64,000 nucleotides of DNA from Clostridium thermosuccinogenes. Lineage in GTDB: Bacteria; Bacillota; Clostridia; Acetivibrionales; DSM-5807. The stretch lies in assembly GCF_002896855.1 (NCBI RefSeq), contig NZ_CP021850.1:3435665-3499664 (forward strand). The letters are read 5' to 3'. Below, piece by piece: positions 20,848-24,391 of the stretch. Numbering within the stretch: position 1 is the first letter of the stretch; each line of letters begins with the position of its first letter. The position numbers and the translations under genes were made by a program. The notes under the pieces were generated by a model. The model was not told where the DNA came from and did not search any database. It worked only from the letters and a program-made list of their open reading frames with translations.

Positions 20848-21204
20848 TCATCTTTTAGCTTTGGGAGTAAAAACTATAGAAATCAAATATCCAAAGAACA
20901 CAGCAGCAGTAATCCCGGCCGCGGCAGACTTTACTCCACCAGTAAAGGCACCAAGAAGACCATACTGATCCACATCCCTGAAGGTCCCCTTCACCAGATT
21001 GTATCCGAAGCCCGTCAAAGGCACAGTCGCTCCCGCGCCGCCCACTTCCACTATTTTCTGGTATACTCCCAGGGCTGTAAGTATGACACCGGAAGTAACG
21101 AATAAAACCAATATCTTGGCAGAAGTCAGCTTGGTTTTGTCTATAAGTATCTGTCCTGCCGCGCATATCACACCGCCTACAATAAATGCGTTTATATATG
21201 ACAA
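20848..21204 (-). CDS. spoVAE: Stage V sporulation protein AE
   Basis: A 118-residue polytopic membrane protein of the SpoVA complex, which moves calcium-dipicolinate into the forespore and out during germination. Four hydrophobic segments are visible. The motif GAGATVPLTGFGYNLVKG is the signature shared by SpoVAC and SpoVAE. I favour the TTG at 21204 because GGAGG is 7 nt upstream; the ATG at 21210 abuts that site. Third SpoVA gene after spoVAC and spoVAD. Confidence 0.93.
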   Translation of the reverse strand: MSYINAFIVGGVICAAGQILIDKTKLTSAKILVLFVTSGVILTALGVYQKIVEVGGAGATVPLTGFGYNLVKGTFRDVDQYGLLGAFTGGVKSAAAGITAAVFFGYLISIVFTPKAKR

Positions 21205-21392
21205 ATCCATCCCTCCCTACAAAAACTTTAGGCCAAGCTAAGACGGCTCATTGCCGCTTTTATCCGGATTTCAACTGCCTTCTCCTCCAGCAGCAGGCAT
21301 CTTTTTTTCAGCATAATTTTTCTACGCAACCGCTCATGCTTTCAAAGCGCAACCAATACTGAAAATGACATTCGAAATTTCATGTCAACAGT

Positions 21393-22412
21393 TCAGCTTA
21401 AAGTTCTGCTCACCGCTACCGCATGGGCTATGCCGGGAATAGACTCTCCCTGCTGGCTGCTGGCCGGACTGAGCAGCGCACCGGTTGCAACAAATAAAAC
21501 CTTGTTGAGATTCCCTTTTTTCATTTCCTGGTATATATAACCGCTGAATACCGATGCGGAACACCCGCAACCGCTTCCACCCGCGTGCACGTCCTGCTTC
21601 CTCCGGTCAAATATCATGATTCCGCAGTCATTATATACACCGCCCATATAATATCCTTCACGCTTCAGAAGGTCTTCACATATGCTTTTGCCTACTGCTC
21701 CCAAATCTCCTGTAACAATGAGATCATACCTCTCAGGGGCATATCCCGTATCCTGAAAATGGGCATAAATCGTATCAGCAGCCGCCGGCGCCATGGCCGC
21801 CCCCATGTTATTTGCATCTTTTATGCCCATATCAACTATCTTGCCGGTAGTCACATGGGTTATATACGGCCCTGACCCCTCACTGGAAAGCAATGCTCCT
21901 CCGGAAGCAGTGACAGTCCACTGGGAGGTAGGGGTACGCTGCGTGCCCAGCTCCAGAGGAAATCTGAATTGCCTTTCCGCCGAGCAAAAATGGCTTGAGG
22001 TAATAGCCACAACATTGTCAGCAAACCCTCCGTCAATCAACATGGCACCGAGGCTCAAAGACTCAGCCATGGTAGAGCATGCTCCAAACACGCCGAAGAA
22101 AGGAATCTCCGATTCCCTCAAGCCGAAGGTGGATGCTATGCATTGATTAAGCAAATCCCCTGCTATTATATAATTAATCTCCGATGGAGCCTTTCCTGCT
22201 TTATTCAAAATCCTCCCGAAAGTTTCCCTCACCAGTTTGCTTTCTGCTCTTTCCCAGCTCTTTTCCCCCCACATTTCATCATCGATAATAGCGTCGAAGT
22301 AAAGCCTTAAGGGGCCTTCTCCCTCTTTTGGCCCTGCAATAACTGCCGTCGAAACTATACTGGGAGGATTCTGCAGCTTTATTGTCTGCTTTCCTAGCCT
22401 CTTTCCAGCCAT
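21393..22412 (-). CDS. spoVAD: Stage V sporulation protein AD
   Basis: A 339-residue thiolase-fold protein that binds dipicolinic acid on the outer face of the spore inner membrane. Family marks are the KLQNPPSIVSTAVIAGPKEGEGPL start, FFGVFGACSTMAESL (the thiolase-like cysteine), FCSAERQFRFPLE and GGSGCGCSASVFSGY. The ATG at 22412 follows AAGGATG; five more codons are open upstream. It sits 46 bp downstream of spoVAC. Confidence 0.97.
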   Translation of the reverse strand: MAGKRLGKQTIKLQNPPSIVSTAVIAGPKEGEGPLRLYFDAIIDDEMWGEKSWERAESKLVRETFGRILNKAGKAPSEINYIIAGDLLNQCIASTFGLRESEIPFFGVFGACSTMAESLSLGAMLIDGGFADNVVAITSSHFCSAERQFRFPLELGTQRTPTSQWTVTASGGALLSSEGSGPYITHVTTGKIVDMGIKDANNMGAAMAPAAADTIYAHFQDTGYAPERYDLIVTGDLGAVGKSICEDLLKREGYYMGGVYNDCGIMIFDRRKQDVHAGGSGCGCSASVFSGYIYQEMKKGNLNKVLFVATGALLSPASSQQGESIPGIAHAVAVSRTLS

Positions 22413-22458
22413 AAAATCATCCTTCACATCAAACAGATTTCTTATTCGTCCGGCATAC

Positions 22459-22905
22459 TCAAAATCTCAGAAGGTAGTAAAAGATGCCTGAGATTACTGC
22501 CGCCGAGATGCCATATACCAGTACAGGTCCGGCAATGGCAAACATCCTGGACCCAACTCCCATTATATAACCTTCACTTTTAAACTCCATGGCAGGTGAA
22601 ACTATGGAGTTGGCGAAACCCGTAATGGGCACGATAGAACCGGCTCCCGCATATTTGCCCAGCTCATCGTAAACATTAAGTCCTGTGAGCAATGCTCCCA
22701 GAAAAATGAGAATAAGGGATGTCAGGTTGGAAGCAACTTCCTTATTAAGGCCCCTTGCTGTAAGCAGGTTATTGATGAACTGACCTACAGTGCATATTAG
22801 CCCGCCTACCAGAAAGGCCCTCAATGTGTTTCTCAATGTTTTGGATTTGGGAGATACTTTTTCAACATACTGCTGGTATTCCTGTTTAGTAAAAGCTTTT
22901 TGCAT
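22459..22905 (-). CDS. spoVAC: Stage V sporulation protein AC
   Basis: A 148-residue membrane protein that acts as the mechanosensitive core of the SpoVA dipicolinate channel. It has a cytoplasmic lead (KEYQQYVEK-like) followed by four to five hydrophobic helices. The family motif GAGSIVPITGFANSIVSPAMEFKSEG is present. The ATG at 22905 follows AGGAGGGGCAGG closely; the frame is open 19 codons further up. It is preceded by a small membrane-peptide gene and a sigma-G-like promoter. Confidence 0.96.
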   Translation of the reverse strand: MQKAFTKQEYQQYVEKVSPKSKTLRNTLRAFLVGGLICTVGQFINNLLTARGLNKEVASNLTSLILIFLGALLTGLNVYDELGKYAGAGSIVPITGFANSIVSPAMEFKSEGYIMGVGSRMFAIAGPVLVYGISAAVISGIFYYLLRF

Positions 22906-23104
22906 CCTGCCCCTCCTGCTTAACCCGATATGCTCCAATAAAATCCATTCCTTGTCCTGCACGCTGGCGTCCGTGGCATACCCTTTTGAGATTAAATGGA
23001 CTTGCCATCAATACCTTTCATTTCCGAACGCCATTGATGCCTGTCATCATTAGCTGATACCGATGCCTTTAACCGGTACTTGTTTGCGAACATGTCCGGT
23101 CAAT

Positions 23105-23257
23105 CTAGCCACACAAGCAATCCTTCAGCACAAAAACGCCTCTCATCGGGATACTTCTATCATTCCTGCTTAGTATTACAACCCATATGATCGCTGCCAG
23201 CACCAATATTGCGAGTATCAAAAAAAGCATCCTGTATTTTTGAAGAACCGCAATCAT
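23105..23257 (-). CDS. Small single-pass membrane peptide, first gene of the spoVA transcript (candidate)
   Basis: A 50-codon frame with a strong AGGAAGGA site 7 nt before its ATG. The translation begins MIAVLQKYRML, runs through one hydrophobic helix (about residues 10-29, ILAILVLAAIIWVVIL) and ends in a short basic and cysteine-containing tail (DCLCG). It lies about 50 bp downstream of a forespore-type promoter and 200 bp upstream of spoVAC, on the same strand. I do not recognise a family. The placement suggests a forespore membrane component expressed with the SpoVA proteins, but this is inference. Confidence 0.65.
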   Translation of the reverse strand: MIAVLQKYRMLFLILAILVLAAIIWVVILSRNDRSIPMRGVFVLKDCLCG

Positions 23258-23304
23258 ATAAAATCCTTCCTTTCCTGTCCCGACATAAAACTATCCGATG
23301 CTTT

Positions 23305-23334
23305 TAGTATTCGACCAATAGAATCGCAATATAC
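23305..23334 (-). promoter_or_regulatory. Sigma-G/sigma-F-type promoter of the spoVA operon
   Basis: On the minus strand GTATA (-35) and AATACTA (-10) are separated by 18 nt, close to the forespore consensus (GHATA / CATNNTA) with one mismatch in the -10. The -10 lies about 48 bp upstream of the small membrane-peptide gene. The sigF terminator lies upstream, so spoVA needs its own promoter. Confidence 0.6.
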
Positions 23335-23546
23335 TCCCAAAATAATCTCTCAGCCGATCTGCGTCGCAAAAACGCCGCCACCGCCGCAGTTAATATTTTC
23401 TTTGCAGCAGAGATTAACAATATTTACTGATATCAGACAGCATTTATTTTCACAGCGAAATATATGGATTTCCAGCCGATCCTGGCATGATAAAAGCACC
23501 GTCAAGACCATGCGTATTCTTTGATTGAGCGGAATTCTAAACATGC

Positions 23547-23583
23547 AAAACAGCCTGCATTTTCAAACCCGAAATGCAGGCTG
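23547..23583 (-). terminator. Terminator after sigF
   Basis: CAGCCTGCATTT pairs with AAATGCAGGCTG around a short loop and is followed on the minus strand by TTTTGC. It begins 38 bp past the sigF stop and separates the spoIIA operon from spoVA. Confidence 0.88.
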
Positions 23584-23620
23584 CTCACCAATAAGATTTT
23601 CATTTTCGTTTAGGTGCCAC

Positions 23621-24391
23621 CTAATTCGAATTTATTTTTTTTCTTATATCCGCAAGGATTTTTTTCTCAATCCGCGAAACCTGAACCTGGGATATCCCCA
23701 GCATTTTTGCTATCTGGAATTGGGTCTTTTCCTTGAAATATCTCAGTATTATTATTTGCTTTTCTCGGGGAGAAAGCTTCTCCAGTATTTGTCTTACGGC
23801 AATTTTATCAATCAAGTCTACTTCACTTCTGTTATCGGCGTCCAACCGGTCAATAAGCAGTATAGGGGAACTGTCCCCTTCTCCGACGGTGCTGTACAAA
23901 GATTCCGGGGTACACCCTGCCTCAATTGCCATCACTATATCTTCAGGAGTAATGGACAAGCGCTCTGCTACCTCATTGATAGTAGGCTCCCTTCCGAGCT
24001 CCTTGCTCATGATCTCTTTTGTAATCCTCACTTTGTTGGATGTCTCCTTAAGAGACCTGCTCACCTTTATGATTCCGTCGTCTCTTATAAACCTCTTTAT
24101 CTCACCGATTATCATAGGAACTGCATAAGTGGAAAATTTCACATCAAAGCTGCTGTCAAATTTATTGATAGCTTTGATAAGGCCAATACAACCTATCTGA
24201 AACAGGTCGTCCGTCTCATAGCCCCTGTTCTGAAACCTTCTTACTATGCTCCATACCAATCCTATGTTGGCTTCTACCAGCTTGGACCGGGCATTCTTAT
24301 CACCAAGCTTTGCCTTATTTATCAGCTCAAGTACGCTGCCTTCCGTATTTTCACCCATCTTCCCCGCGAACCTTTCATCACAAATATACAT
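23621..24391 (-). CDS. sigF: RNA polymerase sporulation sigma factor SigF
   Basis: The first compartment-specific sigma factor, active in the forespore. The protein has up to 256 residues: region 2 with NIGLVWSIVRRFQNRGYETDDLFQIGCIGLIKAINKFD, region 3 with RTISKVSRSLKET-like sequence, and region 4 with SPREKQIIILRYFKEKTQFQIAKMLGISQVQVSRIEK. It follows spoIIAB by 3 bp, the normal spoIIAA-spoIIAB-sigF order. The start may be the ATG at 24391 or the one 11 codons later, which has GGGGAAG close by. Held inactive by SpoIIAB until SpoIIAA is dephosphorylated. Confidence 0.97.
   Translation of the reverse strand: MYICDERFAGKMGENTEGSVLELINKAKLGDKNARSKLVEANIGLVWSIVRRFQNRGYETDDLFQIGCIGLIKAINKFDSSFDVKFSTYAVPMIIGEIKRFIRDDGIIKVSRSLKETSNKVRITKEIMSKELGREPTINEVAERLSITPEDIVMAIEAGCTPESLYSTVGEGDSSPILLIDRLDADNRSEVDLIDKIAVRQILEKLSPREKQIIILRYFKEKTQFQIAKMLGISQVQVSRIEKKILADIRKKINSN

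Follow-up and report, generated by a model that had tools for sequence, protein, structure and literature searches.

SpoVM and CmpA of Bacillus subtilis are tiny, easily missed, sporulation-specific proteins that are made in the mother cell, and MifM is a leader peptide that senses membrane insertion. How the SpoVA channels assemble, gate and open is a question for the field, and studies on Bacillus anthracis indicate that non-core partners of the channel matter: SpoVANJ2, a lipoprotein of the YhcN/YlaJ family, is a member of the SpoVA2 complex and is important for DPA import (PMC13059800). SpoVAA and SpoVAB are the products of the leading genes of the canonical spoVA operon. The locus described here, from a 64 kb stretch of the Clostridium thermosuccinogenes genome (hereafter the window), places a much smaller protein in that position, among the following features:

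23621..24391, minus strand: sigF, forespore sigma factor (sigma-70 regions 2, 3 and 4)
23535..23600, minus strand: sigF terminator hairpin, parting sigF from the transcription unit of the peptide (fold)
23305..23334, minus strand: sigma-G-like promoter GTATA-N18-AATACTA (motif)
23271-23264, minus strand: ribosome binding site AGGAAGGA, 6 bases 5' of the peptide ATG (read in the sequence)
23105..23257, minus strand: 50-aa single-pass membrane peptide P0001 (open reading frame, same-place conservation, signs of purifying selection, AlphaFold2 model)
22459..22905, minus strand: spoVAC, canonical (type 1) (PF03862, E 3e-43)
21393..22427, minus strand: spoVAD, canonical (type 1) (PF07451, E 8e-159)
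20848..21210, minus strand: spoVAE, spoVAEb-type (PF03862 match above the cut-off)

The ORF of the peptide extends on the minus strand from 23257 to 23105, including the stop (MIAVLQKYRMLFLILAILVLAAIIWVVILSRNDRSIPMRGVFVLKDCLCG). The gene order is thus sigF, terminator, peptide and then spoVAC-spoVAD-spoVAE, with spoIIAB-like and spoIIAA-like ORFs upstream of sigF. Between the sigF terminator and spoVAC, the first-pass annotation had proposed a small membrane peptide preceded by a strong ribosome binding site, and its coordinates and parts proved to be correct; the co-location of the peptide with the DPA-channel genes is likewise borne out by the spoVAC, spoVAD and spoVAE genes downstream. The terminator hairpin folds at -24.2 kcal/mol (z -4.1), with 0 of 200 shuffles equally stable, and is missing from the list returned by a stricter consensus scan. 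Separately, positions 22965-23110, in the gap between the peptide and spoVAC, display an unusually stable fold (-46 kcal/mol, z -3.9); in many relatives this gap is too short to accommodate it.

P0001 begins with a K/R-bearing N-terminus, followed by a helix spanning approximately residues 9-33 and a tail with the conserved stretch IPMRGVFV; in the AlphaFold2 model helix 9-33 is predicted with high confidence and the tail with low confidence. The net charge of the two helix flanks is similar (+2.4 versus +2.1), favoring neither side of the membrane for the tail. The tail defines a C-terminal family motif, [IV]P-x-[RK][AG]-x-[FL]V, of which the P and V are near-invariant in 40 aligned members, while in a wider alignment of members the V is kept and the [RK][AG] mostly so; its distance to the stop ranges from 0 to 29 residues. 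P0001 belongs to this family both as a one-helix ORF in the range of 43-72 aa that lies after sigF and/or before spoVAC, and by the match of IPMRGVFV to P-x-[RK][AG]-x-[FL]V in the two alignments. Scans against Pfam and NCBIfam returned no match to P0001 above the curated cut-offs and no family common to the members, a profile search of the PDB with the peptide gave nothing better than chance, and the open-licence literature searched yielded no description of it. With respect to these family libraries, neither of which has an entry containing it, the earlier characterization of the peptide as overlooked stands.

Certain loci show additional small coding elements around the peptide. In those of the Lutispora type a second small soluble ORF, with the consensus ENEIRxDIxEKI and no Pfam match in the one member scanned, is found downstream of it:

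4019-4153 in L098: second small soluble ORF
4089-4238 in L103: second small soluble ORF
262-399 after the sigF stop in L107: second small soluble ORF
3948-4142 in L113: second small soluble ORF

In L073 a stretch resembling this consensus (ETEIRCDIAEKI) continues in the peptide's own frame. In L145 the peptide frame (minus strand, 1470-1857) stays open without a stop into a downstream domain that we take to be dodecin-like, presumably as the result of either a fusion or an internal start.

The first-pass annotation had made its reading depend on conservation of the frame upstream of spoVAC in relatives, and it withstood this check: at the sigF-spoVA junction, the frame was recovered in the majority of relatives from the order and, beyond it, in over a dozen families of the class as well as in additional classes of the phylum. 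Matches were recovered in 53 of 60 relatives (best E 7e-10), the weakest of which, given the threshold of E 1, are no evidence. All 29 of the loci fetched for matches in other genomes have the peptide directly after sigF, mostly followed by spoVAC. By means of the motif, an ORF of this kind after sigF was also identified in Tissierella, Alkaliphilus, Natronincola, Lutispora, Sporosalibacterium, Anaerosalibacter and others; in loci of these types spoVAA and spoVAB often lie downstream of it. Short-frame matches in the class sample of 243 genomes are spread over more than a dozen families and are, by coordinates, mostly situated just 5' of spoVAD; most of the weak matches of this search lie inside long membrane proteins, and long-frame matches, being ordinary membrane helices, were left out. 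In the phylum sample, nine short-frame matches outside the class were read, and 9/9 are directly after sigF with spoVAC further downstream, the most divergent of these loci being L158, in which the motif is weak. The G397 locus, fetched later, agrees with this placement after sigF.

Comparison of close pairs gave dN of 0.03-0.49 against dS of 0.10-1.47, with a ratio mostly of about 0.1-0.5; the exceptions are L028/L050, whose ratio is close to 1, and two pairs in which dS is saturated. The mismatches in close pairs usually concentrate at third codon positions. By these substitution patterns, the peptide is under purifying selection.

Upstream of the ATG, GTATA (23334-23330), an 18-base spacer and AATACTA (23311-23305) form a -35/-10 pair at the right spacing for the sigma-G regulon. 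The motif ends 47 bases 5' of the ATG, in keeping with the forespore-type promoter postulated earlier, and the pattern GTATA-N18-AATACTA has only three occurrences in the 64 kb of the window when both strands are counted. When fixed Bacillus consensus sequences were applied in an initial test, sigma-G was recovered at p <= 0.05 in 21 of 64. The pattern GHATW-N16-19-VATAMTA is found at most 120 bases upstream in 47 of 71 distinct members versus 0.59 expected (an approximately 80-fold excess), a count that is no blind test, as the pattern was relaxed after reading the upstream sequences; the expectation derives from first-order random sequences generated from each region's own base steps. The spoVAC operon of C. 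difficile is sigma-G dependent (PMC3789822), and its promoter resembles sigma-F sites too (PMC7438776). Judging from the promoter motif, the peptide is very likely to be expressed in the forespore.

The linkage of the peptide to the spoVA genes is intimate in several relatives, where its stop directly adjoins the start of spoVAC or overlaps with it (gaps of 0, -1, -16, -20 and -23). Across the loci the gap is -23 to about 530 bases, or else 1.04-1.30 kb, as in L064-L089, and in those of the latter genomes that were read spoVAA and spoVAB intervene. Six f23 genomes (L122, L131, L132, L135, L140, L143) have the order Clp-type AAA+ gene, peptide, spoVAC, spoVAD, with sigF not nearby; spoVAC is likewise present without sigF in the fetched stretches of L183 (f48) and L185 (f23). 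In L045 a 318-aa ORF is inserted between sigF and the peptide, which remains by spoVAC. In the class sample SpoVAD is present in 45 of the 46 peptide-positive genomes (a hand count from the search tables) versus 183 of 243 (hypergeometric P 9e-6). For G111, the lone positive without SpoVAD, the stretch that was fetched contains none of sigF, spoVAC and spoVAD, and the match looks like chance.

This linkage is not absolute. In eight genomes (G005, G039, G048, G050, G075, G083, G104, G255) the peptide follows sigF without adjoining spoVAC or spoVAD; these have no canonical spoVA operon and possess only a spoVA2-type operon elsewhere. Each codes for a single SpoVAD, 64-81% identical to the second-type copy of Clostridium thermosuccinogenes and 45-50% identical to its canonical copy. 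Hence, loss of the canonical operon without loss of the peptide has occurred in at least four lineages (f6, f13/g29, f35/g48, f43). As it is not confined to genomes with a type-1 operon, the type-1 channel is unnecessary for it, which argues against an obligate subunit that serves the canonical channel exclusively. The gene after the peptide in L028 (G048) and L043 is presumably spoVAEa. Clostridium/Fervidicella loci present the reverse situation: no such ORF lies between sigF and spoVAC in those examined (L083, L088, L093, L101, L109, L110), implying that the channel can do without the peptide there. The source genome itself also carries a second, spoVA2-type operon (G000:C1, approximately 4710870-4712670; L182, L190), whose SpoVAD is 49% identical to the canonical one, and a motif scan of 5.3 kb around that operon revealed no peptide.

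The described systems each share something with the peptide and depart from it elsewhere. Like SpoVANJ2, it is a non-core protein encoded with a SpoVAC/D/Eb channel; SpoVANJ2, however, belongs to the YhcN/YlaJ lipoprotein family defined by Pfam PF09580, whereas the peptide is a one-helix protein of 43-72 aa for which the Pfam scan found no PF09580 match. A separate PF09580 protein, encoded at a different place from the peptide, is present in 11 of the 12 genomes tested, the exception being G218 (f23). The idea that the peptide substitutes for the YhcN/YlaJ cap is weakened, since all eight genomes lacking the canonical operon are among those with a PF09580 protein. SpoVAA and SpoVAB resemble it in being encoded at the head of the canonical operon and differ in being separate, larger proteins. 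Both coexist downstream of the peptide in Tissierella- and Alkaliphilus-type loci; hence, it is no remnant of either. SpoVM and CmpA match it in their tiny size, but they are mother-cell products, whereas the peptide has a forespore-type promoter. MifM, too, is small, anchored in the membrane and encoded ahead of a membrane-protein gene; the peptide differs from it by persisting without the downstream gene and by its very variable distance from spoVAC.

The ORF might also be something other than a component of the channel machinery. It is short, hydrophobic frames are common, and the weak matches of the class search fall mostly within long membrane proteins, all as would be seen for a chance or decayed hydrophobic ORF that is no gene; such an ORF is nevertheless ruled out by the conservation, the selection and the promoter motif, because its position, motif and promoter, and a dN/dS of less than 1, recur across the order and beyond. 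We accordingly give it a vanishingly small probability and regard the peptide as a real protein with near certainty. If it were instead a MifM-like upstream ORF, whose nascent chain acts as a sensor to control spoVAC in cis, its position as the first ORF of the unit, near spoVAC in most loci, and the stable fold between peptide and spoVAC in the source genome (z -3.9) would be readily accommodated. Such control in cis is difficult to reconcile with distances to spoVAC of -23 to more than 1300 bases, in some cases with spoVAA and spoVAB in between, with retention of the peptide in the absence of any spoVA gene downstream, with a motif whose position varies from 0 to 29 residues before the stop, and with substitutions that fit selection on the protein itself. 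A cis-acting leader is thus disfavoured and, in our estimate, quite improbable.

A weightier possibility is that of a microprotein of the forespore or spore inner membrane that merely shares the sigma-G unit and has a job independent of SpoVA, for which membrane organisation, a germination receptor, or inhibition of a protease or insertase are candidates. The retention of the peptide after sigF in the eight genomes of at least four lineages without the type-1 operon speaks for this, as do its own promoter motif where spoVAC does not follow (L024, L043, L050, L091, L107) and the Clostridium loci with spoVAC and no peptide. Conversely, the f23 peptide moved away from sigF together with spoVAC, several relatives have a peptide stop directly at, or overlapping with, spoVAC, and the second-type SpoVAC/SpoVAD operon in all eight genomes makes a SpoVA partner possible even there. 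We consider a SpoVA-independent job possible, though not the likelier outcome.

The reading we tentatively favor, at somewhat short of an even chance, is an accessory role in the DPA-channel machinery. It is favored by the presence of a conserved frame at the sigF-spoVA junction at the order, class and phylum levels; by the purifying selection together with the forespore-type promoter motif; by the stop abutting or overlapping spoVAC in several relatives and a linkage that survived both the relocation in f23 and the insertion in L045; and by the co-occurrence with SpoVAD (45/46). The stronger claim of a dedicated subunit of the canonical channel is weakened by the retention of the peptide in eight genomes devoid of the canonical operon. 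From these sequence-based observations, we posit that the peptide is an ancestral microprotein, probably an accessory protein of the forespore inner membrane, and perhaps one of DPA transport. With regard to the time of its expression, RNA polymerase with sigma-G, possibly also sigma-F, would initiate about 40 bases 5' of its ATG, making it the first forespore product of the spoVA transcription unit. The N-terminal helix would serve as its anchor, first in the forespore membrane and subsequently in the inner membrane of the spore, and the short flexible tail with the strand-like [IV]P-x-[RK][AG]-x-[FL]V probably docks on a partner membrane protein. In terms of effect, for which the first-pass annotation had suggested modulation of SpoVA assembly or germination, it would most likely aid the assembly, stability or gating of SpoVA-type channels, and might be able to serve the type-1 and spoVA2-type channels alike.

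Taking this proposal further, the peptide may be ancestral in Clostridia and their relatives as a hitherto unrecognised subunit, or assembly factor, of both types of SpoVA channel, and have been lost by Clostridium and perhaps by other well-studied spore formers; we consider this possible, though less likely than not. With a real peptide that is under selection and present in many spore-forming clostridia, part of a textbook sporulation locus appears to have been overlooked. The genomes with the peptide and without the canonical operon offer a natural experiment to distinguish a function at the channel from one in the spore membrane, and a small protein conserved at the front of the spoVA operon in much of the phylum presents itself as a direct candidate for a non-core partner of the channel.
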